Under the pieces are notes generated by a model that saw only the letters and a program-made list of their open reading frames with translations, did not search any database and was not told where the DNA came from. Source: Chryseobacterium gleum (lineage in GTDB: Bacteria > Bacteroidota > Bacteroidia > Flavobacteriales_D > Crocinitomicaceae). Taken from it: 43,418 nt of DNA. The stretch covers positions 1-43,418 of the forward strand of contig CAMDGH010000011.1 of NCBI GenBank assembly GCA_945897755.1. The letters are read 5' to 3'. Each line of letters starts with the position of its first letter. The first letter of the stretch is position 1. The position numbers and the translations under genes were made by a program. This document shows, piece by piece, positions 6,964 through 30,827 of this stretch.

Positions 6964-7332
6964 ATGGAAACACCTGTAAGTTACATTCCCATTTTAATTC
7001 AATTAGGAGTTGCTTTAGGATTTGTGGTGTCAACCATTATTGCAACTCACTTCTTAGGACCTTCGAGAAAAAGCAAACGTAAATTAAATTCATTTGAATG
7101 CGGAATAGAATCGCAAGGAAATGCGCGTGTACCTTTTTCAATAAAATATTTCTTAGTAGCTATTCTATTCGTTTTATTTGATGTTGAGGTGATTTTCATG
7201 TATCCTTGGGCAGTTAATTTTAAAGAATTGGGAACAACTGGCTTAGTTGAAATGTTCTTGTTCATTGGATTACTTCTCTTAGGCTTCTTTTATGTAGTTA
7301 AAAAAGGAGCGCTTAAATGGGAAGACAAATAA
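6964..7332 (+). CDS. nuoA: NADH-quinone oxidoreductase subunit A
   Basis: Membrane subunit of respiratory complex I at the junction between the peripheral and membrane arms. It is 122 residues with three membrane segments: about 8-28, 60-80 (containing the conserved LFDVEVIFMYPWA block) and 95-115. The loop FECGIESQGNARVPFSIKYF between the first two segments carries the family's conserved Cys. It is the first gene of a 14-gene nuo operon after a 500-base leader region, with nuoB following after 7 bases. Confidence 0.95.
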   Translation: METPVSYIPILIQLGVALGFVVSTIIATHFLGPSRKSKRKLNSFECGIESQGNARVPFSIKYFLVAILFVLFDVEVIFMYPWAVNFKELGTTGLVEMFLFIGLLLLGFFYVVKKGALKWEDK

Positions 7333-7339
7333 AAATGTT

Positions 7340-7903
7340 ATGAGCGAAAAAGACATTATTGAAAGAAATATAAATATCACCAAGGCTCCTGAAGGTATTG
7401 AAGGTGCTGGTTTTTTTGCTACTTCTTTAGATCAAGTAGTTGGTTTAGCAAGAAAAAATTCCATCTGGCCTTTGCCTTTTGCAACTTCATGTTGTGGAAT
7501 TGAGTTTATGGCAACAATGGCATCTCATTATGACTTAGCTAGATTTGGATCTGAACGATTGAGTTTTTCTCCACGTCAAGCAGATTTATTAATGGTAATG
7601 GGAACAATATCAAAAAAATTAGCTCCCGTAGTAAAACAGGTGTACTTACAGATGGCAGAACCAAGATGGGTTTTAGCGATGGGTGCGTGCGCATCAAGTG
7701 GAGGAATTTTCGATACGTATAGTGTACTTCAAGGGATTGATCGAATTATACCAGTAGACGTCTATGTTCCTGGCTGTCCACCAAGACCCGAGCAAGTAAT
7801 CGATGGTATCTTGAGGGTACAAGAATTAGTAGGGAAAGAATCATTAAGAAGAAGAAATTCTCCTGAATATACAGAATTATTAGCATCTTATGGAATCGAA
7901 TAA
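7340..7903 (+). CDS. nuoB: NADH-quinone oxidoreductase subunit B
   Basis: Peripheral-arm subunit that carries terminal iron-sulfur cluster N2, which hands electrons to quinone. The 187 residues include the tandem-cysteine motif TSCCGIEFMA (about 49-58), GACASSGG near 117 and the last ligand in VPGCPPRPEQ near 149, the full 4Fe-4S ligand set. Its 3' end overlaps the longest nuoC frame by 14 bases, suggesting translational coupling. Confidence 0.97.
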   Translation: MSEKDIIERNINITKAPEGIEGAGFFATSLDQVVGLARKNSIWPLPFATSCCGIEFMATMASHYDLARFGSERLSFSPRQADLLMVMGTISKKLAPVVKQVYLQMAEPRWVLAMGACASSGGIFDTYSVLQGIDRIIPVDVYVPGCPPRPEQVIDGILRVQELVGKESLRRRNSPEYTELLASYGIE

Positions 7904-8411
7904 CATGGAAAACGTAACTAAGGACGTAGGAAATGCGCTTTTAAGTAAATTTACTGATGCTCTCATTCAGCAAGAGCTAATTTTAGACTTTCCAACATTT
8001 ACTGTAAAAAAAGAATCTATACTAGATGTCTTAACGTTTTTGTATGATTTTGAGTTATACCAATTCAAATTTATGACTTCTTTGTGTGGCGTTCACTACC
8101 CAGACAACCCAATTGAAAAGGAATTTTGTGTGGTGTATCAATTACATGACATGGTTAAAAATCAACGTATAAGATTAAAAGTTTTTACTTCTGAAAAACA
8201 CATTGAAGTACCAAGTGTAACCTCATTATTTTCTACTGCAAACTGGCTAGAGAGAGAAACCTATGATTTCTTCGGAATAAAATTCACTGGCCATCCAAAC
8301 CTGACAAAAATCTTAAACATGGAAGATCAACCTTATTTTCCTTTAAGAAAGCAATACCAGTTGGAAGATGAAACGCGTGAAGACAAAGACGATAGTAAAT
8401 TTGGAAGATGA
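7890..8411 (+). CDS. nuoC: NADH-quinone oxidoreductase subunit C
   Basis: 30-kDa-type peripheral subunit of complex I that docks on NuoD; it has no cofactor. The 173 residues show the family signature ERETYDFFGIKFTGHPNL near residue 125 and the PLRKQY end block. Two in-frame ATGs are possible: 7890, which overlaps nuoB by 14 bases, and 7905, which begins one base after the nuoB stop. The sequence does not decide between them. nuoC is separate from nuoD here, unlike the fused nuoCD of E. coli. A 56-base gap to nuoD is the longest inside the operon. Confidence 0.94.
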   Translation: MESNNMENVTKDVGNALLSKFTDALIQQELILDFPTFTVKKESILDVLTFLYDFELYQFKFMTSLCGVHYPDNPIEKEFCVVYQLHDMVKNQRIRLKVFTSEKHIEVPSVTSLFSTANWLERETYDFFGIKFTGHPNLTKILNMEDQPYFPLRKQYQLEDETREDKDDSKFGR

Positions 8412-8467
8412 TTATACTAAAATCAAACAAGACATTAGTTAATTTCATACCACAAAAAAAATAACGT

Positions 8468-9676
8468 ATGAACGCTACAGAAATTGAAAAAAACAGATTA
8501 GAACTAGAGGCAAAGGGATATACTATATTGAACCTTGGTCCTACTCATCCAGCTACTCATGGTATTTTTCAAAACATTCTTACCATGGATGGCGATATCA
8601 TAATAGATGCCGTGCCTACGGTTGGATACATTCATAGGGCATTTGAGAAATTAGCAGAAAGAAGGGCTTTTTACCAAATTACAACGATCACTGATAGAAT
8701 GAACTATTGCTCCTCGCCTATCAATAATTTTGGTTGGCACATGACAATGGAAAAATTATTAGGCATTGAGGTACCTAAAAGAGCTCAATACTTAAGGGTG
8801 ATTTTAATGGAGCTAGCACGTATTGCAGATCACTTAATTTGTAATAGTGTAATCGGAGTTGATACAGGTGCTTTAAGTGGTTTTTTATACGTTTTTCAAG
8901 AACGAGAAAAAATATATGAAATCTACGAGGAGATTTGTGGAGCTCGTCTTACCACAAACATTGGTCGTATAGGCGGATTAGAAAGAGATTTTTCTCCGAA
9001 GGCTTGGGGAAAAATACACACTTTTGTTGATACAGTTCCAAGAGCATTAGATGAATTCGCAACATTATTAAGCCGGAATCGAATATTTATGGATAGAACC
9101 GTTGGTGCTGGTCCAATTTCAGCGGAGAGAGCATTAAATTATGGTTTTACAGGTCCAAATCTTCGTGCAACAGGCGTTGATTATGATGTAAGGGTTGCTT
9201 CGCCATACTCATCTTACGAAGATTTTGAATTTGATATTCCGATTGGAGAAAATGGAGATACTTACGATCGATTTATGGTACGCCAAGAAGAAATGTATCA
9301 ATCATTAAGCATCATTAAACAAGCTATAGCAAAATTACCTTCAGGTCCTATACATGCTGATGTGCCAGAAATTTATTTACCTCCAAAAGAAGACGTATAT
9401 AATAATATGGAAGCATTGATTTACCAATTTAAAATAGTTATGGGTGAATCTAATGTTCCTGTTGGGGAAGTATATCACAGCGTAGAGGGTGGGAATGGTG
9501 AATTAGGATTTTACTTAATAAGTGATGGGGGAAGAACTCCCTTTAGATTAAGTTTACGAAGACCATGCTTTATATATTACCAAGCTTATACAGAAATGAT
9601 TAAAGGAGCAATGTTATCAGATGCTATTTTAACACTGAGTAGCATGAATGTAATTGCAGGAGAATTAGACGCATAA
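8468..9676 (+). CDS. nuoD: NADH-quinone oxidoreductase subunit D
   Basis: 49-kDa-type subunit that, with NuoB, forms the quinone-binding site of complex I; it is evolutionarily related to the large subunit of NiFe hydrogenases. The 402 residues start with the conserved NLGPTHPATHG block near residue 22, followed by VGYIHRAFEKLAE (54-66), NYCSSPINNFG and the C-terminal DGGRTPFRLSLRRPCF region near 350. It ends in ELDA. Length and motifs are full, and it is followed by nuoE after 19 bases. Confidence 0.97.
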   Translation: MNATEIEKNRLELEAKGYTILNLGPTHPATHGIFQNILTMDGDIIIDAVPTVGYIHRAFEKLAERRAFYQITTITDRMNYCSSPINNFGWHMTMEKLLGIEVPKRAQYLRVILMELARIADHLICNSVIGVDTGALSGFLYVFQEREKIYEIYEEICGARLTTNIGRIGGLERDFSPKAWGKIHTFVDTVPRALDEFATLLSRNRIFMDRTVGAGPISAERALNYGFTGPNLRATGVDYDVRVASPYSSYEDFEFDIPIGENGDTYDRFMVRQEEMYQSLSIIKQAIAKLPSGPIHADVPEIYLPPKEDVYNNMEALIYQFKIVMGESNVPVGEVYHSVEGGNGELGFYLISDGGRTPFRLSLRRPCFIYYQAYTEMIKGAMLSDAILTLSSMNVIAGELDA

Positions 9677-9695
9677 CACACGAAAAAAACACAAC

Positions 9696-10211
9696 ATGTC
9701 AAAAGAAATTGTTTTTTCAGAAGAAACGTTATTAGTAGTTCATAAACTAATGAAACGTTACCCAGAAGGGCGACACAAATCAGCTTTACTTCCGGTTTTA
9801 CATATTGCGCAAGCTGAATTTGATGGATGGTTAAGTTCTGAGGTAATGGATTATGTTGCATCGGTTTTAAACATTAAATCGATTGAGGTATATGAAGTAG
9901 CTTCATTTTACTCCATGTACAACTTGAATCCTGTTGGAAAGTGTTTGTTAGAGATATGTCACACCGGACCATGTATGTTAAATGGTGCGGACGATTTAAT
10001 TGCCCATTTTCAAAATAAATTAAATATAAAAGTGGGTGAAACTACTGAAGATGGTATGTTTACATTAAAAACTGTGGAGTGTTTGGGTTCTTGTGGAACA
10101 GCGCCAATGCTTCAGTGTGGAGCAGATTACCACGAAAATTTAGACGAAGAAAAAGCCGATTTATTATTAGATAAATTACGTGCGGAAAATAAACGTTCAA
10201 GATATTGTTAA
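9696..10211 (+). CDS. nuoE: NADH-quinone oxidoreductase subunit E
   Basis: 24-kDa-type subunit of the NADH-oxidising module, holding the 2Fe-2S cluster N1a in a thioredoxin-like fold. The 171 residues contain the first cysteine pair in CHTGPCMLNG (about 89-98, C-x4-C) and the second in CLGSCGTAPML (about 130-140, C-x3-C), the expected ligands. An N-terminal helical domain with LLPVLHIAQ precedes them. Its presence with nuoF and nuoG shows the NADH input module is complete, unlike in some Bacteroidota that carry an 11-subunit form. Confidence 0.95.
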   Translation: MSKEIVFSEETLLVVHKLMKRYPEGRHKSALLPVLHIAQAEFDGWLSSEVMDYVASVLNIKSIEVYEVASFYSMYNLNPVGKCLLEICHTGPCMLNGADDLIAHFQNKLNIKVGETTEDGMFTLKTVECLGSCGTAPMLQCGADYHENLDEEKADLLLDKLRAENKRSRYC

Positions 10212-10232
10212 CCAGAGTTTAATTTAAGCAAA

Positions 10233-11600
10233 ATGGGACGAAAACTATTATTAGAACACATAGACGTTAGTGGAATTGAAACCTTAGAGGTATATCGTAA
10301 AATGGGGGGCTATGCTGCTGTAGAAAAAGCGCTAAAAACAATGGCCCCTGATGATGTTACGGAAGAGGTTAAAAAATCTGGCTTAAGAGGTCGTGGTGGT
10401 GCAGGTTTTCCTGCGGGAATGAAGTGGAGTTTCATAGATAAAAAATCGGAAAAACCGCGCTATTTAGTTTGTAATGCTGATGAAAGCGAACCCGGCACAT
10501 TCAAAGACCGCTATTTAATGGAAAAAATTCCACACTCTTTGATTGAAGGCATGATCGTATCGAGCTACGCCTTAGGAGCTAAGACAGGATACATATACAT
10601 TCGTGGAGAATATTTTTACATACTGAGAATACTTGAAAAAGCAATTGCAGATGCTTACGATGCTGGCTTATTAGGGGATAACATTTTGGGTACTGACTAC
10701 TCATTAGATTTACATGTACAAATTGGTGCTGGTGCTTACATTTGCGGTGAAGAAACAGCATTATTGGAATCATTAGAGGGCAAAAGGGGTAACCCAAGAA
10801 TGAAACCTCCTTTCCCTGCAATTTCAGGATTGTATGCTTGCCCTACAGTAGTTAATAATGTTGAAACAATTGCTGCTGTTCCTCATATTGTAAATATTTC
10901 TGGAGATGAATATGCTAAAATAGGCATTGGTAGAAGTACAGGAACAAAATTAATTTCAGCAAGTGGTCACATAAATAAACCTGGGACATATGAAATCGAA
11001 CTTGGTTTATCTGTAGAAGAATTTATCTACTCTGATGAATATTGTGGTGGAATTAAAAATGGAAGAAAATTAAAAGCTTTAATTGCAGGAGGTTCATCGG
11101 TACCTATTTTACCAGAACACCTAATTACAAAAACTGCAACTGGAGAGGATCGATTAATGACCTACGAATCTTTATCTGATGGAGGATTTATAAGTGGGTC
11201 GATGTTGGGTTCTGGAGGTTTTATTGTGATGGATGACTCTACATGTATTGTAAGACATACTTGGTCTTTAGCGCGTTTCTACCACCATGAGTCTTGTGGA
11301 CAATGTTCTCCATGCAGGGAAGGAACTGGTTGGATGGAAAAAGTATTACACAGAATAGAACATGGGCATGGTACATTGAAAGACATTGATTTACTGGTAG
11401 ATATTGCTAAAAAAATCGAAGGAAATACAATATGTCCTTTAGGTGATGCGGCGGCATGGCCAATAGCAAGTGCAATACGCCATTTTAGATCTGAATTTGA
11501 ATATCACGTTGCTAACCCATCGAAAATAATAAATCCAAATCATTTTTTACATGAACCATTTGTAAATACGGCTGTAAAAAATGAAACGATTTTAAATTAA
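10233..11600 (+). CDS. nuoF: NADH-quinone oxidoreductase subunit F
   Basis: 51-kDa-type subunit that binds NADH, FMN and cluster N3; entry point of electrons into complex I. The 455 residues include the glycine-rich NADH site [17 protein letters not shown] (about 49-65), the FMN-site stretch [15 protein letters not shown] near 80, the [19 protein letters not shown] block near 168, and the 4Fe-4S ligands in [15 protein letters not shown] near 351 with the last Cys in [12 protein letters not shown] near 395. It belongs to the nuo operon, 33 bases before nuoG. Confidence 0.97.
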
Positions 11601-11633
11601 ACCCAATTTTGCTCAACGATAAATAAAAAGAAT

Positions 11634-12614
11634 ATGGCGAAAGTAACAATCGACGGAGTTGAAATTGAAGTACCGAATGGAACTTCAATTCTAAACGCAG
11701 CGAGATCTGTAGGAGGAGATATTGTTCCCCCAGCAATGTGCTACTATTCTAAATTAGAAGGAAGTGGCGGAAAATGTCGTACTTGTTTGGTTAAAGTAAC
11801 TCAAGGATCAACAAACGACCCACGTCCAATGCCTAAATTAGTCCCATCGTGTAGTACAACTGTAATGGACGGAATGATCGTTGAAAATTCGACTAGTCCT
11901 GACGTATTAGAAGCGCGAAAAGGAGTGGTAGAGTTTTTGTTGATTAATCACCCATTAGACTGCCCGGTATGCGACCAAGCTGGTGAATGCGACCTTCAAA
12001 ACTTAGGTTTTAAACATGGTGCTGCTTCTACTCGATATGAAGAAGAAAGAAGAACATACGAAAAAATTGATATAGGCGACAAAATACAATTGCACATGGA
12101 TAGGTGTATCTTATGTTACAGATGCACATATGTAGGAGATCAATTAACCGATGAACGAAAGCATGGGGTGATCAATCGAGGTGATCACGCTGAAATTTCA
12201 ACATACATAGAAAAGAATATTGATAATGAATTCTCAGGCAATATGATAGATGTATGTCCTGTAGGAGCACTAACAGACAAAACAAGTCGATTTGGCAGCC
12301 GGGTTTGGTTTACTAAACCGATGGATGCACATAGGGCATGTACTTCATGTTCAGGAAAAGTAGTATTGTGGTTAAAAGGTGAAGAAGTACTTAGGGTTAC
12401 AGGGCGGAAAGACCAATACGGAGAAGTGGATGAATTCATCTGTAACACATGTCGTTTTGATACGAAAGAGCTGGCAGCGTGGACCATTGAAGGACCTAGA
12501 CACATTGAAAAAAAATCTGTTATTTCTCAAAACCATTACGAACATTTAAAAGACATAAAAGAAGATATTGTTAAATATCAAAAACAGATTGCAGAAAAAA
12601 TCAATAAAGGATAA
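11634..12614 (+). CDS. nuoG: NADH-quinone oxidoreductase subunit G, short form without molybdopterin-like domain
   Basis: Electron-wire subunit of the complex I peripheral arm. The 326 residues begin with a ferredoxin-like 2Fe-2S domain (SGGKCRTCLVKV near 45-56). The His/Cys 4Fe-4S site follows (HPLDCPVCDQAGECDLQ near 105-121), then a two-cluster-like block with CILCYRCTY (about 160-168) and CPVGAL near 210. A last Cys pair set (ACTSCSG near 235, ICNTCRF near 268) resembles the start of the molybdopterin-oxidoreductase domain, but the protein stops soon after. Classical NuoG has 700-900 residues. The frame ends cleanly 3 bases before nuoH, so this is the native size, not a frameshift. Similar short forms are, to my knowledge, usual in flavobacteria. 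Confidence 0.92.
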   Translation: MAKVTIDGVEIEVPNGTSILNAARSVGGDIVPPAMCYYSKLEGSGGKCRTCLVKVTQGSTNDPRPMPKLVPSCSTTVMDGMIVENSTSPDVLEARKGVVEFLLINHPLDCPVCDQAGECDLQNLGFKHGAASTRYEEERRTYEKIDIGDKIQLHMDRCILCYRCTYVGDQLTDERKHGVINRGDHAEISTYIEKNIDNEFSGNMIDVCPVGALTDKTSRFGSRVWFTKPMDAHRACTSCSGKVVLWLKGEEVLRVTGRKDQYGEVDEFICNTCRFDTKELAAWTIEGPRHIEKKSVISQNHYEHLKDIKEDIVKYQKQIAEKINKG

Positions 12615-12617
12615 AAC

Positions 12618-13658
12618 ATGGACGATTTTTTATTTAAAGTAATATTAGTTGTTGTATTATTTGTTGTTTCACTTGTAGTAGCGATGTACTCAACTTATGG
12701 TGAACGAAAAATATCTGCATTTATGCAAGATAGAATTGGACCAAATCGTGCTGGTCCATTTGGTTTACTTCAACCTTTAGCCGATGGGATTAAGATGTTC
12801 ATGAAAGAGGAAATAATTCCGAATGTTTCAAATAAAGCATTATTTATTCTAGGTCCTTGTTTAGCAATGACTACCGCTTTAATGGCTGGAGTTCTTGTAC
12901 CCTGGGGAGGAGATATTGTAATTGGTGGAAAAACATATAGCTTACAAATAGCAGATTTAAACATTGGTGTACTCTATATTTTTGGTGTTACCTCTTTAGG
13001 TGTTTATGGAATAATGATTGGTGGTTGGGCCTCCAATAACAAATACTCTTTAATGGGGGCTATCCGGGCATCAGCGCAAATGATTAGTTATGAAATCGCA
13101 ATGGGACTGGCTATTATTGCGCTTATTATGACAACAGGAACAATGAGCTTAGGAGAGATTGCACGACAACAAGATGCTGGTTTAGCAAATATTGCATATC
13201 AACCTTTGGGGTTTTTAATCTTTTTAATTTGTGTTTTTGCTGAACTTAATCGTGCTCCATTTGACATGCCAGAAAGTGAATCCGAACTGATTGGAGGATA
13301 TCATACAGAATATTCAAGTATGAAGCTAGGCTTATATTTATTTGCTGAGTACATTAATATGTTTATTTCTTCAGCGGTATTGGTTACGTTTTATCTTGGT
13401 GGTTATCATTTTCCATTCCAACAAGAGATAAATCAATTTTTTAATTTATCTACTAATATGATTGCCATATTGGGAACATTTGTATTTTTCTTAAAAATAT
13501 TTTTCTTTATCTTTTTCTTTATGTGGGTTCGATGGACATTACCACGATTCAGGTACGATCAATTAATGCGTGTGGGATGGAAATCATTAATTCCGCTAGC
13601 AATACTAAATATCCTAATCACGGGGGTGGTTATGTGGATGAACGGGAAATTAAATTAA
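12618..13658 (+). CDS. nuoH: NADH-quinone oxidoreductase subunit H
   Basis: Membrane subunit that forms the quinone chamber entrance and links electron transfer to the proton path. It is 346 residues with about eight membrane segments. Conserved loops are seen: ERKISAFMQDRIGPNRAGPFG (with a single residue between halves of the family signature) near residues 29-49, the acidic loop CVFAELNRAPFDMPESESEL near 205-224, and the C-terminal MWVRWTLPRFRYDQLM near 300. It starts 3 bases after nuoG. Confidence 0.96.
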   Translation: MDDFLFKVILVVVLFVVSLVVAMYSTYGERKISAFMQDRIGPNRAGPFGLLQPLADGIKMFMKEEIIPNVSNKALFILGPCLAMTTALMAGVLVPWGGDIVIGGKTYSLQIADLNIGVLYIFGVTSLGVYGIMIGGWASNNKYSLMGAIRASAQMISYEIAMGLAIIALIMTTGTMSLGEIARQQDAGLANIAYQPLGFLIFLICVFAELNRAPFDMPESESELIGGYHTEYSSMKLGLYLFAEYINMFISSAVLVTFYLGGYHFPFQQEINQFFNLSTNMIAILGTFVFFLKIFFFIFFFMWVRWTLPRFRYDQLMRVGWKSLIPLAILNILITGVVMWMNGKLN

Positions 13659-13668
13659 AACTACAATC

Positions 13669-14238
13669 ATGCAACTGCTAACAAATAGATCGAAACTTGT
13701 TGTAAAAAGGGAAATGACCTTTGTTGAAAAGCTTTACCTACCAGCAATATTTACAGGAATGATAATTACTTTTAAGCATTTGTTTAGAAAGTCAGCTACA
13801 ATAAGATATCCTGAACAAAAAAGAGAATTTAGCCCATTGTACAGAGGTCATCATGTTTTAAAGAGAGATGATAAGGGAGCTGAAAGATGTACTGCTTGTG
13901 GTTTATGCGCTGTATCTTGTCCAGCTGAAGCAATTACTATGACGGCTGCAGAACGTAAAAAAGGAGAAGAAAATCTTTACCGAGAAGAAAAATATGCTGC
14001 AAAATACGAAATTAATATGCTGCGCTGTATTTTTTGTGGACTATGTGAAGAGGCCTGTCCAAAAGAAGCTATATTTTTAACAGACAGACTAGTACCTAGC
14101 GAATTTGAACGAAATGATTTTATTTTTGGAAAAGATAAATTAGTTGAAAAGCCAGACGAACGAATTGATGTTTCAAAAAGACAAACGCCTGAGGTACTAG
14201 CATTTAAAGAAAATAACCGATTAAGTCATAATAAATAA
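13669..14238 (+). CDS. nuoI: NADH-quinone oxidoreductase subunit I
   Basis: Peripheral subunit with two 4Fe-4S clusters (N6a and N6b) that pass electrons to cluster N2 on NuoB. The 189 residues contain two classic ferredoxin motifs: CTACGLCAVSCP (about 71-82) and CIFCGLCEEACP (about 122-133), each followed by the Pro of the second half-site. The N-terminal 45 residues contain an amphipathic, membrane-associated stretch. It sits between nuoH (10 bases before) and nuoJ (12 bases after). Confidence 0.96.
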   Translation: MQLLTNRSKLVVKREMTFVEKLYLPAIFTGMIITFKHLFRKSATIRYPEQKREFSPLYRGHHVLKRDDKGAERCTACGLCAVSCPAEAITMTAAERKKGEENLYREEKYAAKYEINMLRCIFCGLCEEACPKEAIFLTDRLVPSEFERNDFIFGKDKLVEKPDERIDVSKRQTPEVLAFKENNRLSHNK

Positions 14239-14250
14239 TTTGTATACTAA

Positions 14251-14748
14251 ATGACACACTACGCTTTTTATTTCTTATCATTTTTAGCCATTCTTTCTGC
14301 ATTAATGGTCGTTTTTTCTAAAAACCCCATTCATAGTGTTTTATACTTAGTATTGACATTTTTTGCAATCGCTGGTCATTACCTTCTATTAAATGCGCAA
14401 TTCTTAGCTGTTGTTCACATTGTTGTCTACGCTGGTGCAATCATGGTATTGTTTCTGTACGTTCTTATGCTACTCAACCTTAATGTAGATGCTGAACCAA
14501 AAAAGTCGAACTGGGTAAAATTTGCTGGAGTGATATCAGGAGGAATGCTCATGTTAACCCTAATTGCTACATTTTATAAAGCAGAGACACAAGCAATGGT
14601 TCAAAAAGACCCTAGTATAGGTGTTACGGCAAACCTTGGTAAAATATTATTCAATGAATTTGCACTGCCTTTTGAAATTTCATCCATATTGTTATTAAGC
14701 GCAATGGTAGGTGCAATTTTGTTAAGTAAAAAAGACGCTAAAAATTAA
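14251..14748 (+). CDS. nuoJ: NADH-quinone oxidoreductase subunit J
   Basis: Small hydrophobic membrane-arm subunit (165 residues, five predicted membrane segments) at the kink between quinone site and antiporter-like subunits. The third segment, [23 protein letters not shown] near residues 53-75 (given with family numbering approximated), carries the conserved Tyr-Ala-Gly-Ala core. The following loop is charged and variable. It lies 4 bases before nuoK. Confidence 0.93.
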
Positions 14749-14752
14749 TTTT

Positions 14753-15070
14753 ATGGAAATTATAAAAGAAATACCATTAAATCATTATATTCTTTTAAGC
14801 ACAATCCTATTTTGTATTGGGGTTATTGGGGTACTTGTAAGAAGAAATGCAATTATCATTTTTATGTGTATTGAACTTATGCTTAATGCTGTAAACTTAT
14901 TGATGGTTGCATTTTCTGCACACCATGGAGATGGGAAAGGGCAGGTATTTGTATTCTTTATCATGGCTGTAGCAGCTGCTGAAGTTGCTGTCGGTTTATC
15001 AATACTCATTATGATTCATAGAAATACTCATACGACAGATATTGGATTTCTTAACAAACTTAAATTTTAA
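14753..15070 (+). CDS. nuoK: NADH-quinone oxidoreductase subunit K
   Basis: Three-helix membrane subunit related to MrpC and part of the proton-translocation path. In its 105 residues, the second helix carries the conserved Glu in [12 protein letters not shown] (about 39-50), and the third carries [11 protein letters not shown] (about 71-81) with the second conserved Glu. Both carboxylates needed for pumping are present. Spacing is 4-5 bases on both sides in the operon. Confidence 0.96.
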
Positions 15071-15075
15071 TACAA

Positions 15076-16983
15076 ATGAAAGAATTAGTTTGGTTAGTAC
15101 CTACTTTACCATTGCTTGGTTTTTTAGTAATCAGTATAGGAAAACGTTATTTTTCTAAATCAATTGCTGGAATTTTAGCCAGTGCAACGATATTCGTATC
15201 CTTTATTATTTCTATCGGTATATTTTTTGATGTTCATGGAAGTCATGGAACCCCATTTACATTAAGTTTATTTGAATGGATATCAACAAGTGATTTTAAA
15301 GTTAACATAGCGTTCCTCGTTGATCCTCTTTCTTCTATCATGCTGTTGATAATTACGGGAATAGGATTCTTAATACATGTGTACTCTATGGGATATATGC
15401 ATGATGATGAAGGGTACGCAAAATTTTTCTCTTATTTAAATTTATTTGTCTTCTTCATGTTACTTCTTGTATTGGGAGATAATTATTTATTGATGTTTGC
15501 CGGTTGGGAAGGTGTTGGATTGGCTTCTTATTTGTTGATCGGATTTTGGTTTAAGAATGGGAATTACAATGATGCTGCAAAAAAAGCATTTATAGTAAAT
15601 CGAATTGGTGACTTAGGATTTGTATTGGGCATTATTTTACTTTTTATGACATTCGGTACCGTTCAATTCTCAGCTGTTTTTGGAGAAGCTGTTCACCTAA
15701 CAGATAATATGCCTGTTATTACTGCAATTACCTTACTTTTATTTGTAGGTGCCATGGGGAAAAGCGCACAAATCCCTTTGTATACTTGGCTTCCTGATGC
15801 AATGGCAGGACCAACTCCAGTTTCTGCTTTGATTCACGCAGCAACAATGGTTACTGCTGGTGTGTATATGATTGCAAGATCAAATGTACTTTATAGTCTT
15901 GCGCCTGAAACAATGGGCATAGTAGCTATCGTAGGGGCTTCAACAGCATTATTTGCAGCTACAATCGGTATTTTTCAGAATGATATCAAAAAAGTATTGG
16001 CTTATTCAACTGTCAGTCAGTTAGGTTATATGTTTTTAGCGCTGGGTGTAGGAGCTTTTACTGGTGGGGTTTTTCATTTAATGACACATGCTTTTTTTAA
16101 AGCATTGCTTTTTTTAGGTGCAGGAAGTGTTATTCATGCCATGGGAGGCGAACAAGATATTAGAAAAATGGGGGGCTTAAAGAAATACATCCCGATTACT
16201 TTTATGACTTTTCTAGTTGGTACCTTTGCTATATCTGGTATACCTCCTCTTTCTGGATTCTTTTCAAAAGATGAAATTCTAGCTCATGCATATCAAGTTA
16301 GTCCATTTCTATGGGGAATTGGGGTTGTTGGATCATTGATGACAACGTTCTATATGTTCCGATTGTTTTTCTTAACTTTTTATGGAACTTTTAGAGGTAC
16401 TCAAAATCAAAAAGACCATCTACACGAATCTCCAAAGACAATGACTACACCTCTGGTTGTATTAGCGGTTTTAGCTGCATTGGGAGGTTTTATTGGGGTT
16501 CCCCATGTGTTGGGTGGAAACCATTGGTTAGAACGTTTTTTAGAGCCTGTTTTTAGACAATCTGCAATACATGCTCATGGACATAGCTTAGCTCATTCTA
16601 CTGAACTTATTTTAATGGGAGTAACTGTAACACTAACTATTTTATTTATCTTATTTGCAAGACATAAATTCCTTGTTAAGAATACAGTTCCTAGCCTAGA
16701 TGATAGGAAATTAAGATTCATACCTAAATTAGTTACAAACAAATACTATATCGATGAATTTTACAATGCAATTATTGTGAAACCGCTAAATTCTTTTGCT
16801 GGATTTACATACAAAATAATAGAATTAAAAGGAATAGACTTTATCGTAAACCTTACAGGTAAAATAGTAGTATTTACTAGTTCGATAGTACGAAGAATTC
16901 AAACAGGAAACACTGGTTTTTACATTTTTGCAATGGTGATAGGCATCGTTGTAATATTGATGCTTAATTTATTAAATAAATAA
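15076..16983 (+). CDS. nuoL: NADH-quinone oxidoreductase subunit L
   Basis: Distal antiporter-like proton-pumping subunit of complex I with the long lateral helix. The 635 residues include the conserved WEGVGLASYLLIGFW block near residue 144 (with the key Glu), the discontinuous-helix region TWLPDAMAGPTPVSALIHAA near 240, the lysine/histidine-containing TVSQLGYMFLALG near 315 and HAFFKALLFLGAGSVIH near 338. A His-rich loop follows at about 490-510, before the C-terminal amphipathic helix and final anchor. It is directly followed by nuoM (3 bases). Confidence 0.97.
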   Translation: MKELVWLVPTLPLLGFLVISIGKRYFSKSIAGILASATIFVSFIISIGIFFDVHGSHGTPFTLSLFEWISTSDFKVNIAFLVDPLSSIMLLIITGIGFLIHVYSMGYMHDDEGYAKFFSYLNLFVFFMLLLVLGDNYLLMFAGWEGVGLASYLLIGFWFKNGNYNDAAKKAFIVNRIGDLGFVLGIILLFMTFGTVQFSAVFGEAVHLTDNMPVITAITLLLFVGAMGKSAQIPLYTWLPDAMAGPTPVSALIHAATMVTAGVYMIARSNVLYSLAPETMGIVAIVGASTALFAATIGIFQNDIKKVLAYSTVSQLGYMFLALGVGAFTGGVFHLMTHAFFKALLFLGAGSVIHAMGGEQDIRKMGGLKKYIPITFMTFLVGTFAISGIPPLSGFFSKDEILAHAYQVSPFLWGIGVVGSLMTTFYMFRLFFLTFYGTFRGTQNQKDHLHESPKTMTTPLVVLAVLAALGGFIGVPHVLGGNHWLERFLEPVFRQSAIHAHGHSLAHSTELILMGVTVTLTILFILFARHKFLVKNTVPSLDDRKLRFIPKLVTNKYYIDEFYNAIIVKPLNSFAGFTYKIIELKGIDFIVNLTGKIVVFTSSIVRRIQTGNTGFYIFAMVIGIVVILMLNLLNK

Positions 16984-16986
16984 AGG

Positions 16987-18447
16987 ATGATTACTACTGC
17001 ATTATTATTTTTTCCCTTGATTATAGGAATACTTTTGTTTTTTATAAAGGGGGAATCTGTTAAAAAACTTGCTTTATCAGCAAGTTTAATTGAATTTTCT
17101 TTAGGAGTATATGCGTTTTTCAATTTTGATAAAACAAATGCATTAGCGCAATTTGTTTTTGATATTCCATGGATAAATTCTCTAAATATACATTTTCACA
17201 TCGGAATGGATGGAATTAGCTTATTATTGATTTTATTAACAACATTCTTAGTTCCATTAATCATTCTATCAGCAAACCGAAATACATATAAAAACCCAAG
17301 TAAGTTGTATGCACTAATCATGATCATGCAATTTGGATTAATTGGTGTGTTTTCAGCACAAGACGCTTTCCTTTTTTATATTTTTTGGGAAGTAGCATTA
17401 ATACCTATCTATTTTATAGCACTATTATGGGGTGGTAAAGAGCGTGTTCGAATCACTTTTAAATTTTTTATATACACGCTCGCTGGAAGTTTACTAATGT
17501 TAATTGGTTTGATTTATGTTTACTTAAACACTCCATTACCTCATTCCTTTAGTCTTACACGTTTATATGAATTAAACCTTAATAGCACAACACAAAATTG
17601 GTTATTTTGGTTATTCTTCATCGCATTTGCAATAAAGATGCCTGTTTTTCCTTTTCACTCATGGTTAGCAGACACCTATACTGATGCGCCAACACCAGGA
17701 ACAATGATGTTGTCAGGGATAATGTCTAAAATGGGGGTTTATGGAGCTCTTCGACTATTGTTACCAATAACTCCACAAGCCATGTTAGATTGGGGGCCCT
17801 TAGCAATCACACTTGCGGTTATTGGAGTCATATACGCATCTCTATTGGCTATGTACCAAAAAGAATATAAGCGATTAATCGCTTATGCGTCAGCTGCACA
17901 CATTGGTTTGATTGCAGCAGGTGTATTTTCATTAACAAGCAACGGTCTAACTGGTGCAATTGTTCAAATGTTAGCGCATGGTGTAAGTGCTTTCGGTTTA
18001 TTTTATGTTATAGATTTATTAAAATCAAGAACAGAAACAACAGAAATATCTAAATTAGGAGGAATTCGTTTAGTCGCTCCTAATTATGCTGCTGCATTTT
18101 TAATCATATTACTTGCAAGTATAGCATTACCATTAACAAGTGGTTTTATAGGCGAGTTTTTATTATTGGTTGGGATATATGAGTACAATTCAGGATTAGC
18201 TGCTTTTGCTGGAATTTCTACTATTTTAGGAGCGGTATACATGTTAAAAAGTTATCAAACTTCTATTTTAGGTGATCGTACAAAATTTTCTGACACCTTT
18301 ACTGATTTAGTTTGGCAAGAAAAAATAATATTGGCTCCCGTAATATCCGTAATTTTTGTATTTGGTATCTATCCAAAACCATTTATAGAGATTGCAAAAC
18401 CAGCTGTAGCTCAATTACTCTCAATCATGGAAATCACTATTAAATAA
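16987..18447 (+). CDS. nuoM: NADH-quinone oxidoreductase subunit M
   Basis: Antiporter-like proton-pumping subunit of the complex I membrane arm, 486 residues with about 14 membrane segments. Diagnostic stretches include FHIGMDGISLLLILLTTFL near 70-88, FYIFWEVALIPIYF near 130 (conserved Glu), PFHSWLADTYTDAPTPGTMM near 224-243, and LIAYASAAHIGLI near 299. It overlaps nothing but is tightly packed between nuoL and nuoN. Confidence 0.96.
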   Translation: MITTALLFFPLIIGILLFFIKGESVKKLALSASLIEFSLGVYAFFNFDKTNALAQFVFDIPWINSLNIHFHIGMDGISLLLILLTTFLVPLIILSANRNTYKNPSKLYALIMIMQFGLIGVFSAQDAFLFYIFWEVALIPIYFIALLWGGKERVRITFKFFIYTLAGSLLMLIGLIYVYLNTPLPHSFSLTRLYELNLNSTTQNWLFWLFFIAFAIKMPVFPFHSWLADTYTDAPTPGTMMLSGIMSKMGVYGALRLLLPITPQAMLDWGPLAITLAVIGVIYASLLAMYQKEYKRLIAYASAAHIGLIAAGVFSLTSNGLTGAIVQMLAHGVSAFGLFYVIDLLKSRTETTEISKLGGIRLVAPNYAAAFLIILLASIALPLTSGFIGEFLLLVGIYEYNSGLAAFAGISTILGAVYMLKSYQTSILGDRTKFSDTFTDLVWQEKIILAPVISVIFVFGIYPKPFIEIAKPAVAQLLSIMEITIK

Positions 18448-18456
18448 CAATAAATA

Positions 18457-19827
18457 ATGAAAGCATTAATACTATTATCAAGCTTGGGGATTTTGGGAAT
18501 TCTTTCTGAAATACTAAACTTTAAAAAAATAATTTATAAAATCTGTTTATTCGGATTGATTGTTACGCTTGGGGTTTGTATTACCGAATGGGATAATCCT
18601 GCACCAATGTTGTTTGATAAAATGGTGTTGTTTGATAATTTAGCAGTTTCTTTTTCCGCAGTATTAATCACAACTGGAATACTCTGGTTTCTGATGTCAG
18701 CAGATTTATTTAAAAACACAGAACTTCAATCTGATAAAAGTACCTTAGTTTTATTTTCATTAGTAGGAGCTGTTTGTATGGTGAGCTATCATAACTTAAC
18801 CATGCTATTTATTGGAATCGAAATTCTTTCCATTTGCATGTATGTAATGGCTGGAAGTCAAAAAGAGAGTTTAGCATCGAATGAATCTGCAATGAAATAC
18901 TTTCTAATGGGAGCTTTTGCTACAGGATTTTTACTTATGGGAATTGCATTTATATATGGGGCTACAGCAAGTTTTGACCTGACAGAAATAAAAACCTATA
19001 TGGAACAAAGTCCAAAAAACACTGAATTAGTATACACCGGTATTTTAATGTTAGTGATTGGATTATCTTTTAAAATTTCTGCCGTTCCATTTCATTTTTG
19101 GGCTCCAGATGTATATGAAGGTGCTCCAGTACAAATTACAGCATTAATGTCTACCATTGTAAAAACAGCAGCAATTGCGGCTTTCTATAAATTATTTGTA
19201 ATCAGTTTTGAAAGTCAAAGCCATATATGGGAACCAACATTAAGTTATATCGCTGGAATAACAATCATCGTAGGTAATATTATTGCCGTTTTTCAAAACA
19301 ATACAAAAAGAATGTTAGCTTATTCGGGTATTTCACACGCTGGATATCTGTTATTAGCTATTTTAGCAAACAACACTGCTGGGGGTAATGCTTTAATCTA
19401 TTATACATTGGCTTATTCTATAGCTACAATTGCCGCATTTACGGTAATCCTTGTTGTTTCTAAACAAAAAGAAAATGAAGGATTTGATGCATTTGAAGGT
19501 TTAGGTAAGAAAAACCCTTTAATAGCGCTTGCTACAATCATTGCGATGTTTTCATTAGCCGGAATACCTCCATTTGCCGGTTTTTTCGGTAAATATTTTT
19601 TATTCACAAGCTATCTAACTTCTCATGATATCCCTTTAATAATAGTTTCAATTGTTGGTTCTGCAATTAGTATTTATTTCTATTTTAGACTAATCGTTAC
19701 ACTCTTTAAAGGAGAAAGTGATGAAGTAATTCAATTATCAATCAATACAAAAATAGTGTTGATATTATCTATTGTATTTACCTTATTACTCGGTCTATTT
19801 CCAGATAGTATTCTTGGTGGTTGGTAA
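18457..19827 (+). CDS. nuoN: NADH-quinone oxidoreductase subunit N
   Basis: Third antiporter-like subunit of complex I and last gene of the nuo operon (456 residues). Conserved features: LFIGIEILSICMYVMAG near 112-128 with the key Glu, FKISAVPFHFWAPDVYEGAP near 206-225, and the helix-8 block MLAYSGISHAGYLLLA near 287. The sequence ends with a short LGLFPDSILGGW tail. The stop is followed by a weak AT hairpin and the convergent rpiB. Confidence 0.96.
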   Translation: MKALILLSSLGILGILSEILNFKKIIYKICLFGLIVTLGVCITEWDNPAPMLFDKMVLFDNLAVSFSAVLITTGILWFLMSADLFKNTELQSDKSTLVLFSLVGAVCMVSYHNLTMLFIGIEILSICMYVMAGSQKESLASNESAMKYFLMGAFATGFLLMGIAFIYGATASFDLTEIKTYMEQSPKNTELVYTGILMLVIGLSFKISAVPFHFWAPDVYEGAPVQITALMSTIVKTAAIAAFYKLFVISFESQSHIWEPTLSYIAGITIIVGNIIAVFQNNTKRMLAYSGISHAGYLLLAILANNTAGGNALIYYTLAYSIATIAAFTVILVVSKQKENEGFDAFEGLGKKNPLIALATIIAMFSLAGIPPFAGFFGKYFLFTSYLTSHDIPLIIVSIVGSAISIYFYFRLIVTLFKGESDEVIQLSINTKIVLILSIVFTLLLGLFPDSILGGW

Positions 19828-20312: not shown

Positions 20313-20681
20313 AAAAAAATACTTTTTTTCAAAGTTAATCTATATAAACAATTCAAACAAGTTATACACATTAAGCTTACTTGTTTATTTTTAATACTAT
20401 CTAAATCATTGATTTAAAAAAAAAGATTTACATATTCATGAAACAAATATTGTTTATATGTGTTCGTAAGTAAGAATAACATTCGTTAGCATTATCCAAA
20501 CTAAAAATGTAATCAAAATAATAATATTAAGATACTAATAAACTTAGCGATTGTTTTATAAATTTATTCACACCATTTAGAACAATAAATTAGAGTTATA
20601 GATAATAAACTTATACATAAAATGAGAAAGAGTGAATTGTTAATAATAATATAAGACAATGAAAATCAGTATATTATTTTA

Positions 20682-20704
20682 AAAAATAGGTTCAAAAATA
20701 GGTT
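20682..20704 (+). repeat. Direct repeat AAAAATAGGTT, two copies, 12-base period
   Basis: Copies at 20682-20692 and 20694-20704 are identical and spaced by one base, about one helical turn start to start. They lie about 230 bases upstream of the LytTR regulator and could be an operator for a DNA-binding protein. Confidence 0.6.
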
Positions 20705-20768
20705 AATTATAATGATAACTTTTAAATCAAAACAAGTTAACTTATTATTATCAACATATTAACACATA

Positions 20769-20820
20769 TAATAATAAGAATTAATTTTTTTAAATTTAAA
20801 ATAACTAATTCTTATTATTA
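20769..20820. repeat. 15-bp perfect inverted repeat, 22-base spacer
   Basis: Left arm TAATAATAAGAATTA (20769-20783) is the exact reverse complement of the right arm (20806-20820). No T-run follows on either strand, so it does not look like a terminator. It lies about 115 bases before the LytTR start and may be an operator or a cruciform-prone element. Confidence 0.75.
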
Positions 20821-20935
20821 AAAAAGAGCTCATTTATGTATTTCATTGTTATGTTGAAATTAAATCTTACTTTAAGTTGAATTAAATAAATAATACTGAA
20901 TATCAATTAGTTATAATTTAATAAATAAAATAAAA

Positions 20936-27153: not shown

Positions 27154-27576
27154 ATGTCGGTTGATGCAATTGTTATTGAAAGGATAGAAATTGATTCAGA
27201 TTTAAGTAATTTATCTATTATTGAATCTTTAATTGATAAACTTTGCGTTTCTATTCATATGAATGAAGATTTATACGGAAACGTGTTAATTTCTGTTACT
27301 GAGGCTTTTAATAATGCTGTTATTCATGGAAATTTATTAGTTCATACACAAAAGGTTTTGTTAGAAGTTTTTGAAGATGATTTTTCTTTTTCTTTCAAGA
27401 TTTCTGATTCTGGTGTAGGTTTTAATTTTTTAGATATTCCAGACCCTACCTCTCCTGAAAATTTAGAAAAAGAAAATGGGCGAGGTATATTCCTTATAAA
27501 AAATTTATCTGATGATGTATCATTTACTAATAATGGGGCTACTATCATTATAAAATTCAATAAAAACCATGATTGA
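27154..27576 (+). CDS. RsbW/SpoIIAB-like serine kinase-type ATP-binding protein
   Basis: Small GHKL-fold ATPase of 140 residues, like anti-sigma-factor kinases. The N-box is SVTEAFNNAVIHGN (47-60, catalytic-type Glu50 and Mg-binding Asn54). The G1 box is SDSGVGF (about 83-89) and the G2-like box is ENGRGIFLIKNL near 107-118. No anti-anti-sigma factor (STAS protein) or alternative sigma factor is adjacent, so its partner is unclear. It sits between the DUF4175-like gene and ybeY, overlapping ybeY by 8 bases, which indicates co-translation. The role could be in partner switching or be unrelated to sigma factors. Confidence 0.9.
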   Translation: MSVDAIVIERIEIDSDLSNLSIIESLIDKLCVSIHMNEDLYGNVLISVTEAFNNAVIHGNLLVHTQKVLLEVFEDDFSFSFKISDSGVGFNFLDIPDPTSPENLEKENGRGIFLIKNLSDDVSFTNNGATIIIKFNKNHD

Positions 27577-27982
27577 TGTTTTTTTTGAAGATATTCCCGA
27601 ATTTAATTTTGACGTTTTATTTTATTCGAATTGGATTGATTCTTTTGTAACGAAAGAAGATTTTTTACTTGGTGATTTAACACTCATTTTTTGTTCTGAT
27701 CCTTTTCTGTTAGATCTTAATAAAAAACATTTAGACCACGATTTTTTTACAGATATAATCACCTTCGACTATTCACTTGATTGTCATATCTCTGGTGATC
27801 TTTTTATAAGTGTTGATCGTGTATTAGAAAACGCTAATACATTTAATGAACCTTATTTAATTGAATTACAGCGTGTTATAGCTCATGGTGTATATCATTT
27901 GTGTGGTTACTTAGATAAGACCGAAGATGAGATCTTACTCATGAGATCTAAAGAACAATTTGCTTTATCTTTGATTTCTTAA
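27569..27982 (+). CDS. ybeY: Endoribonuclease YbeY (rRNA maturation factor)
   Basis: Metal-dependent RNase involved in 16S rRNA 3'-end maturation and ribosome quality control (known for the family). The 137 residues show the family core: ITFDYS near 64-69, the substrate-site GDLFISVDRVLENA near 76-89, and the metal motif HGVYHLCGYLDK at 106-117. The first two ligand histidines (H106, H110) are present, but the third canonical His is Asp116. The gene starts 8 bases inside the previous gene and ends one base before a parS-type palindrome. Confidence 0.94.
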   Translation: MIDVFFEDIPEFNFDVLFYSNWIDSFVTKEDFLLGDLTLIFCSDPFLLDLNKKHLDHDFFTDIITFDYSLDCHISGDLFISVDRVLENANTFNEPYLIELQRVIAHGVYHLCGYLDKTEDEILLMRSKEQFALSLIS

Positions 27983-28000
27983 TTGTTTCACGTGAAACAA
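27983..28000. promoter_or_regulatory. parS: parS centromere site (ParB-binding palindrome)
   Basis: TTGTTTCACGTGAAACAA is a perfect 18-bp palindrome and contains the exact 16-bp parS consensus TGTTTCACGTGAAACA at 27984-27999. It lies in the 82-base gap between ybeY (stop ends at 27982) and mnmG, upstream of the mnmG promoter candidate. ParB proteins bind this sequence to organise and segregate the origin region. parA and parB are not in the window. Confidence 0.88.
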
Positions 28001-28064: not shown

Positions 28065-29939
28065 ATGCTCGAAAAATACGATGTTATTGTTGTCGGTGGT
28101 GGTCATGCTGGTTGTGAAGCTGCGAATGCTGCTGGTAAATTAGGTAGTAAGGTTTTGCTTATTACGATGAATATGAATACCATTGCTCAAATGAGTTGTA
28201 ATCCGGCTATGGGTGGAGTTGCTAAAGGTCAAATAGTACGTGAAATTGACGCTTTAGGTGGTGGTAGTGGTATTGTCAGCGATTTATCTGCTATTCAGTT
28301 TAGAATGCTTAATCTCTCCAAAGGTCCTGCTATGTGGTCACCACGCACTCAAAATGACAGAATGTTGTTTGCTGAAGAATGGAGATTGTTACTTGAGCGG
28401 AATAAGAATGTAGATTTTTGGCAGGATACTGCTACTTCTTTGATTATTGAAGGAGCTAAAGTTATTGGTGTAAAAACTGCTTTAGGAGTTTCTATTTATT
28501 CTAATTCGGTTATTCTAACTAATGGTACTTTCTTGAATGGTCTTATTCATTTAGGAGATAAGCAATTTGGTGGAGGTCGTGCTGCTGAATCTGCTTCTTT
28601 TGGTTTAACAGAAATGCTTATTTCTTTGGGTTTTGAGGCAGGTAGAATGAAGACTGGAACTCCTCCTCGTTTAGATGGGCGTTCATTAGATTATTCAAAA
28701 TTCGAGATTCAACATGGAGACTCAGATCCATCTAAATTTAGTTATTCAACCCGAACAGCTCCTTTATCTAAACAGCATGCTTGTCATACTACGTATACAT
28801 CTGAGTTAACTCACTCCATTCTAAAAACGGGCTTTGATCGCTCTCCTATGTTTAATGGTTCTATAAAAAGTACCGGTCCGCGCTATTGCCCAAGTATTGA
28901 AGATAAAATAAATCGTTTTGCAGATCGTGATCGTCACCAATTATTTATTGAACCAGAAGGTTGGAGAACATGTGAGATTTATTTGAATGGATTTAGCACT
29001 TCTTTACCTGAGGAAATCCAATTAGCTGCACTAAAATCCATTCCTGGTTTTGAATCGGTAAAAATGTTTAGACCTGGTTATGCAATTGAATATGATTATT
29101 TTCCACCTACTCAACTTAAACATACTTTAGAAACCAAATTAATCAACGGTTTGTTTTTTGCAGGTCAAATTAATGGAACAACGGGATATGAAGAGGCTGC
29201 TTGTCAAGGTTTAATTGCTGGTATCAATGCTCATCACCTTGTTAATCATCTAGATGCATTTATACTATCTCGATCTGAAGCTTATATCGGTGTATTAATT
29301 GATGATTTGATTACTAAAGGAACTAAGGAACCTTATAGAATGTTTACCAGTCGTGCCGAATATCGTATTCTTTTACGTCAAGATAATGCAGACATACGTT
29401 TAACTCCTCTTGCTCATAAAATTGGTCTTATTGATGATGAATCGATGCTTAGGGTTGATTTAAAAAATAGAGGTGTTCAATCTTTGAAGGATATTCTTAA
29501 ATCTACAGGCATTAAACCCGTTGATGCTAATCCTATCCTTTCTTCTTTAGATAGCGCTCTTATTTCTCAACAAGTAAAGTCTACATCGATAATAACACGA
29601 CCTAATGTTACCTTAAAGCATATTGCTTCTATGGACTCTACTATATCAGATGCTTTATTAGACTGGGATTCACAACACGAAGACGTTTCAATTCAAACAG
29701 AAATTCAATTGAAATATGAAGGTTATATCCAAAGAGAACAAGATATGGCTCTTAAAATGATTAAACTAGATGATTTACTTATTCCTAATGATGTTGATTT
29801 CAATCAATTTTCTAGTATATCTTTAGAAGCAAGGGAAAAATTTAATGCTATCAGGCCTGTTACCATAGGTCAAGCTTCTCGTATTAGCGGTGTATCACCT
29901 AGTGATGTTTCCGTCTTATTAATTTATTTAGGGAGATAG
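28065..29939 (+). CDS. mnmG: tRNA uridine-5-carboxymethylaminomethyl modification enzyme MnmG
   Basis: FAD-dependent partner of MnmE that installs the carboxymethylaminomethyl group on the wobble uridine of several tRNAs. The 624 residues begin with the Rossmann motif VVGGGHAGCEAA (about 9-20), followed by the GidA signatures GGVAKGQIVREIDALGG (about 49-65) and CPSIEDKINRFADRDRHQ near 277. The C-terminal helical domain carries FTSRAEYRILLRQDNAD near 428. Full length. In many bacteria gidA/mnmG is close to the origin and par locus; here two parS-type palindromes flank it (27983-28000 and 29938-29953). The second overlaps its TAG stop. Confidence 0.97.
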   Translation: MLEKYDVIVVGGGHAGCEAANAAGKLGSKVLLITMNMNTIAQMSCNPAMGGVAKGQIVREIDALGGGSGIVSDLSAIQFRMLNLSKGPAMWSPRTQNDRMLFAEEWRLLLERNKNVDFWQDTATSLIIEGAKVIGVKTALGVSIYSNSVILTNGTFLNGLIHLGDKQFGGGRAAESASFGLTEMLISLGFEAGRMKTGTPPRLDGRSLDYSKFEIQHGDSDPSKFSYSTRTAPLSKQHACHTTYTSELTHSILKTGFDRSPMFNGSIKSTGPRYCPSIEDKINRFADRDRHQLFIEPEGWRTCEIYLNGFSTSLPEEIQLAALKSIPGFESVKMFRPGYAIEYDYFPPTQLKHTLETKLINGLFFAGQINGTTGYEEAACQGLIAGINAHHLVNHLDAFILSRSEAYIGVLIDDLITKGTKEPYRMFTSRAEYRILLRQDNADIRLTPLAHKIGLIDDESMLRVDLKNRGVQSLKDILKSTGIKPVDANPILSSLDSALISQQVKSTSIITRPNVTLKHIASMDSTISDALLDWDSQHEDVSIQTEIQLKYEGYIQREQDMALKMIKLDDLLIPNDVDFNQFSSISLEAREKFNAIRPVTIGQASRISGVSPSDVSVLLIYLGR

Positions 29940-29953
29940 TTTCACGTGAAACA
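29938..29953. promoter_or_regulatory. parS: parS-type site overlapping mnmG stop and next start
   Basis: AGTTTCACGTGAAACA differs from the 16-bp parS consensus only at its first base and keeps the full 14-bp palindromic core GTTTCACGTGAAAC (29939-29952). The core begins at the last base of the mnmG TAG stop and contains the GTG start codon of the downstream methyltransferase (29946-29948). Confidence 0.82.
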
Positions 29954-30827
29954 ATTAAACACACTAATCGCCTGTCCTGTTTGTAGTCATTCAGTAAAGG
30001 AAGATCGTTTATCAGTTAAAGACTGGATGATTACCAAAACTATTTTTACGATTGTAAAATGCAGTTCTTGTGGTTTTCATTACACCAATCCTATTCCATG
30101 TGAGGAATCAATAGGAGCTTACTATAAAAGTGAAGAATACGTTTCTCATTCTTCATCAAAAAAAGGATTGATTAATTGGCTTTATAATTTTGTGCGTTCA
30201 ATTACATTAAAACGAAAAGTTTCGTTGTTGAAGTTTCATTCGTCAGGCAAAGAATTGCTCGATATTGGTGCTGGCACGGGCCATTTTTTAAATGCATGTC
30301 AACAGGACTCGTTTTCAGTACAAGGACTAGAGCCAGATTTAGATGCGCGCGCTTATGCATTTTCAAACTTTCAAATTTCCTTAGAAGATATTTCTTTGCT
30401 TTCAAGCATAGAATCTCAATCAAAAGATATCGTAACGATGTGGCATGTTTTAGAGCATGTTTATCACTTAAAAAGAGATGTAGCAGATATTGTCCGCGTT
30501 CTTAAAAAAGACGGTGTGTTGTTTATTGCTGTTCCAAATATGAATTCATATGATGCTCAATATTATAAATCGCATTGGGCTGCGTATGATGTTCCTCGTC
30601 ATTTGTATCATTTTCAACCCGAAACGATAAGGTTTCTCTTTGATCAATTTGATATGGAATGCATTCAAACTCTTCCTATGAAGTTTGATTCCTATTATGT
30701 GTCTATGCTCTCAGAAAAATACAAAGGAGGATCTTCTTTCTCTGCTATTTATCGAGGATTTCTATCCAATTTTAAAGGGAGAAAACAAGGATATAGTTCT
30801 CAAATATATGTTTTTAAAAAGAAATAA
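29946..30827 (+). CDS. Zinc-ribbon class I SAM-dependent methyltransferase
   Basis: Methyltransferase of unknown substrate, 293 residues. An N-terminal zinc ribbon holds four cysteines as two CxxC knuckles (C10/C13 and C39/C42). The class I Rossmann core has the SAM motif LLDIGAGTGHF near residue 98, an acidic motif in LEPDLDARAYA near 123 and the WHVLEHVYHL block near 166. The frame is closed upstream by the mnmG stop (same frame, two codons earlier), and no ATG precedes the first cysteine pair, so GTG at 29946 is the only sensible start. That GTG lies inside a parS-type palindrome. It is in the same unit as mnmG; a role in modifying a sugar, lipid or RNA cannot be chosen from sequence alone. 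Confidence 0.88.
   Translation: MKQLNTLIACPVCSHSVKEDRLSVKDWMITKTIFTIVKCSSCGFHYTNPIPCEESIGAYYKSEEYVSHSSSKKGLINWLYNFVRSITLKRKVSLLKFHSSGKELLDIGAGTGHFLNACQQDSFSVQGLEPDLDARAYAFSNFQISLEDISLLSSIESQSKDIVTMWHVLEHVYHLKRDVADIVRVLKKDGVLFIAVPNMNSYDAQYYKSHWAAYDVPRHLYHFQPETIRFLFDQFDMECIQTLPMKFDSYYVSMLSEKYKGGSSFSAIYRGFLSNFKGRKQGYSSQIYVFKKK

Follow-up and report, generated by a model that had tools for sequence, protein, structure and literature searches.

A predicted chromosomal parS pair flanking mnmG near the probable replication origin of a Crocinitomicaceae-type Flavobacteriales chromosome

The parAB genes of most model bacteria are origin-proximal. Their DNA target, parS, has a 16-bp consensus, TGTTTCACGTGAAACA, owed to Livny et al. 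2007 (as cited in PMC10197239 and PMC7333895). The general mechanism of ParABS systems is well described (PMC7333895), and CTP-dependent spreading of ParB is treated in the abstract of PMC8367383. In Bacteroidota, examples come from a Hi-C study of gut bacteria (PMC10197239). It reports parS clusters in all 12 species, including Bacteroides caecimuris and Muribaculum intestinale, and states that dnaA is not always found at the origin in gut species. The same study, published in 2023, uses parS together with GC skew to locate ori in gut Bacteroidetes. The Noc-binding sites (NBS) of Bacillus are related palindromes, bound by the ParB paralogue Noc (PMC7383237).

The locus considered here lies in a window of 43,418 nucleotides, which is the whole stretch of DNA analysed. 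An 18-bp palindrome in this window is very probably a chromosomal parS. Judged by sequence comparison, it is one of two sites, at 27983-28000 and 29939-29952, which stand on either side of mnmG near the probable origin of a Crocinitomicaceae-type Flavobacteriales chromosome. The preferred reading is a canonical, origin-proximal parS pair, because the pair is near-unique in its genome, ParA and ParB are present, linkage to mnmG extends across the phylum, and the GC-skew minimum falls near parS in relatives. The pair resembles described chromosomal parS sites in its exact consensus, low copy number, clustering, origin-proximal position (by GC skew in relatives) and encoded ParA and ParB. It differs in flanking mnmG, and in the placement of parB, which in 18 complete genomes of the window's class lies a median of 0.57 half-chromosome from parS. 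The clusters of B. caecimuris and M. intestinale belong to the same phylum and share an origin that is not always at dnaA, but mnmG does not appear in the accessible passages of that study; its phylum-wide linkage to parS, and the position of parAB, are measured here. NBS differ from the window's sites at positions 1 and 6, and the specificity residues of the genome's ParB are of the parS type. The features of the locus are as follows.

27569-27982, plus strand: ybeY, endoribonuclease gene directly upstream of parS1 (Pfam YbeY, E 4.5e-18)
27983-28000, no strand assigned: predicted parS1, perfect palindrome of 18 bp (TTGTTTCACGTGAAACAA) between ybeY and mnmG; 27984-27999 match the 16-bp parS consensus exactly
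28065-29939, plus strand: mnmG (gidA), tRNA-modification enzyme gene enclosed by both sites (Pfam GIDA, E 4e-154)
29939-29952, no strand assigned: predicted parS2, exact core GTTTCACGTGAAAC at the end of mnmG and the start of the next gene
29946-30827, plus strand: methyltransferase gene with a GTG start inside parS2 (Pfam Methyltransf_23, E 8e-21)

Read directly from the window sequence, parS1 immediately follows the ybeY stop codon (27980-27982) and ends 64 bp before the mnmG ATG (28065). The initial annotation had described it as an 18-bp perfect palindrome containing the exact ParB-binding consensus, placed between ybeY and mnmG. Sequence and setting both stand, and Pfam confirms the two gene names. 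That description was right about this site but took it as single, and missed the second site on the other side of mnmG. Compared with the consensus, parS2 is exact over 14 bp and carries one mismatch in the 16-mer (A for the first T). It begins on the final base of the mnmG stop (TAG, 29937-29939), and the GTG at 29946 within it starts the downstream methyltransferase gene. From the in-frame stop upstream to an N-terminal CPVC motif, no other start codon occurs. The embedded start, TAGTTTCACGTGGAACA, is kept in four genomes of the same genus; in the other genera fetched, either the methyltransferase gene has its start immediately outside the site, or no homologue turned up at that place. The closest named relatives of the window's MnmG are Crocinitomicaceae/Fluviicola-type Flavobacteriales.

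A genome-wide scan for the 14-mer had been proposed earlier as a check on the site. The 2.48-Mb draft (136 contigs) contains exactly two copies of GTTTCACGTGAAAC, both in the window (27985-27998 and 29939-29952) and 1.95 kb apart, so the motif is rare and clustered rather than scattered round the chromosome. The reversed control pattern has no copy in the draft. Base composition predicts about 0.008 copies per genome (own arithmetic), and two within 2 kb are thus not a matter of chance.

The association with mnmG holds across the phylum. Among relatives, 18 of 40 carry the exact 14-mer, and each of the 19 tested has sites that are exact or one mismatch off, mostly the half-site variant GTTCCACGTGAAAC. 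A survey of 296 Bacteroidota genomes, each at least 95% complete, found GTTYCACGTGRAAC in 273, usually in two copies and in up to 10, and ParB in 294; counts of the reversed control were almost always 0. The position of the sites was examined in 80 named mnmG loci from GTDB genomes, 1.02 Mb in total. A site lies within 700 bp upstream of mnmG in 61 loci, within 400 bp downstream in 46, on both sides in 44 and on either side, within these distances, in 63. Only nine sites occur elsewhere in the 1.02 Mb, inside mnmG or further out, and the reversed control has no match in it. Flavobacterium-type loci have rows of up to eight sites between ybeY and mnmG. In some genera the copies number 3-10, often at intervals of about 40-70 bp, in a centromere-like cluster. 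About one-fifth of the named loci have no exact site beside mnmG, many of them labelled Saprospiraceae/Lewinellaceae. Most of these loci are also without any match at up to two mismatches; in some others, a one-mismatch site stands where a site would be expected. Eleven loci (L170, L186, L200, L205, L206, L210, L212, L221, L226, L232 and L237), mostly Saprospiraceae/Lewinellaceae-type records, have no parS-like site near mnmG even with two mismatches allowed. In that lineage, parS may have moved or diverged.

This distribution bears on a second way of reading parS1, as a Rho-independent terminator after ybeY. As RNA, the palindrome would form a hairpin with a 7-bp stem and a 4-nt loop (-5.6 kcal/mol), with GTTTTT directly after it. 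The hairpin is weak and not unusual, however (z -1.36; 23 of 200 shuffles fold as well), and a terminator scan makes no call at the palindrome, which is thus not the stable GC-rich hairpin with a U-tract expected of such an element. The identical core also covers the GTG with which the next gene begins, and termination at that point would be self-defeating; the full core, including the would-be loop, recurs beside mnmG across the phylum. A terminator is therefore a very improbable explanation.

A chromosomal parS calls for a cognate ParB, and the genome encodes one, with an adjacent ParA, as a second check proposed at the outset had looked for.

Contig C47, 4420-5232: parA, ParA-type ATPase gene preceding parB in an operon-like pair, named from sequence by eye
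Contig C47, 5222-6124: parB, encoding the only ParB_N protein in the genome (E 2e-33)

The nearest solved relatives of this ParB are chromosomal ParB/Spo0J/Noc proteins. It carries the motifs GERRFKA and ENIQR, which we take to be CTP-binding motifs. In an alignment to Caulobacter ParB (PDB 6s6h), its R and G stand opposite R173 and G201, and the same two residues are kept in the ParB of seventeen family or order relatives. This combination is described as absolutely conserved in ParB orthologues, as opposed to Q and R in Noc (PMC7383237). A parS-like sequence with one mismatch, GTTTCACCTGAAAC, occurs on the same contig (L006, 3649-3662) inside an ORF, 758 bp upstream of parA. It was not counted as a third parS. 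The parAB regions of the 17 relatives hold no counterpart within two mismatches, and for that reason this sequence is probably a chance or lineage-specific occurrence.

The protein evidence also weighs on the idea that the palindromes are operators, through which an ordinary transcription factor would control mnmG and the downstream gene. Their placement, one ahead of mnmG and the other where the methyltransferase gene starts, would suit such a role. The sequence is nevertheless the ParB consensus, the genome's ParB has the matching residues, and the multicopy clusters of some genera look like centromeres; operators of this kind are highly unlikely. That the sites serve Noc-type nucleoid occlusion, a reading prompted by the kinship of Noc with ParB and of NBS with parS, can be dismissed with near certainty, since their position 1 is G and their centre CACGTG, as in parS, and the genome's one ParB family member has R/G and not Q/R.

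For the chromosomal parS pair, placement at the origin draws on GC skew in relatives. Global skew values were taken from sampled 20-kb stretches and local values from contiguous stretches of 340, 440 and 80 kb. In the complete genome G015 (4.37 Mb), the sampled global and exact local minimum lies at 2.740-2.741 Mb and parS at 2.7215 Mb, a distance of 19.9 kb. The complete genome G026 belongs to another family; its minimum falls at position 316, 17.1 kb from parS at 17.4 kb. On a contig of the same genus (G011:C1), the minimum is at 312.0 kb and the parS sites are at 315.8 and 317.7 kb, a distance of 4 kb. The skew of the window itself has no clear minimum at the site. From the relatives, we infer that the origin of the 136-contig draft probably lies next to the parS pair. 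The initial annotation had assigned the window to the origin domain, and these distances in relatives support it.

A lead to the origin itself is an intergenic region about 7 kb from parS1.

20313-20935, no strand assigned: candidate oriC, 623-bp intergenic region, 83% AT, between rpiB (minus strand) and a LytTR response-regulator gene (plus strand)

This is the longest intergenic region in the window, and the only one of at least 300 bp with at least three DnaA-box-like motifs. They include TTATACACA, TTATCCAAA, TTATTCACA, TTATACATA and TTATCAACA. Seven boxes with at most two mismatches compare with 2.6 in mononucleotide shuffles (P 0.015), a modest enrichment. The candidate on the rpiB side came from looser box criteria; with a stricter box, the window has no cluster of at least four. 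In both G015 and G026, the skew minimum is within 2 kb of an rpiB-adjacent divergent intergenic region. Box content there is weak, and the stretches scanned contain no cluster of at least five boxes per 500 bp. In G011, the LytTR-side intergenic region has boxes, but it lies 6 kb from the skew minimum, and rpiB is in a different place. An Rfam search returned tRNA only. The candidate adjoins a run of genes at 6964-19827 which, by eye, we take to encode NADH-quinone oxidoreductase (nuo) subunits. Further along, two adjacent minus-strand ORFs (4120-5280 and 5301-6461) are exactly 386 aa each; by eye, the start of the first presumably resembles 4-hydroxyphenylpyruvate dioxygenase and that of the second homogentisate 1,2-dioxygenase.

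The positions of dnaA and parB were compared with parS in 24 complete genomes, 18 of the window's class and six of other classes. Exact sites are present in 22. In every one of the 16 window-class genomes that have them, they lie no more than 1.1 kb from the midpoint of mnmG, and in all six genomes of other classes no more than 13.3 kb. For window-class distances, mnmG served as the reference in the two genomes without exact sites. The median distance from parS in that class (n = 18) is 0.66 of a half-chromosome for dnaA and, as given above, 0.57 for parB; with a small sample of related genomes, both distributions are indistinguishable from uniform scatter (KS p 0.15 and 0.14). The six genomes of other classes have dnaA near parS (median 0.017), but not parB (0.32). 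The window's own genome has dnaA on contig C54 and parB on C47, and neither on the window's contig. Mapping the 14-mer against parAB, as suggested earlier, has thus had a divided outcome: the copies pair at mnmG, but parAB and dnaA fall outside this domain, on other contigs here and usually at a distance in complete relatives of the class. On the simplest reading, we infer that the ancestral origin region held parS, mnmG and dnaA, and that dnaA left it in the window's class. A fuller account is favoured on balance. The centromere-mnmG-origin block would predate the split of the classes, dnaA and parAB would have scattered in the window's class, and parS flanking mnmG, rather than dnaA, would be the general origin marker of that class. 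The gene order (ybeY-parS-mnmG-parS, with a parS-embedded start in one genus) would have been kept for centromere function.

How the pair would act can be outlined by analogy. (i) ParB dimers would nucleate on both parS sites. (ii) In a CTP-dependent step, the dimers would form closed clamps that slide along the flanking ybeY-mnmG-methyltransferase region. (iii) ParA would pull the ParB-coated DNA apart, so that the newly replicated origin region would be segregated first. These steps are carried over from established ParABS biology; what is seen in this organism is the sequence of the components alone.

The presence of parS in the phylum, and its use in finding ori, is already known. A search of freely readable papers for parS with mnmG gave nothing relevant; the phylum-wide linkage to mnmG and the unlinked parAB genes are, as far as could be checked, undescribed. 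It had been suggested at the outset that segregation loci are little studied in this phylum. That is fair, although a 2023 study described parS clusters at the origin in gut Bacteroidetes (PMC10197239). Chromosome segregation has received little study in Bacteroidota, and the pair names exact sites for work on ParB. It also raises the question of how segregation copes with parAB genes distant from their centromere. The mnmG-parS pair is a marker of the origin domain that can be read from sequence alone, and it serves for draft genomes and MAG contigs in which dnaA is a misleading guide.
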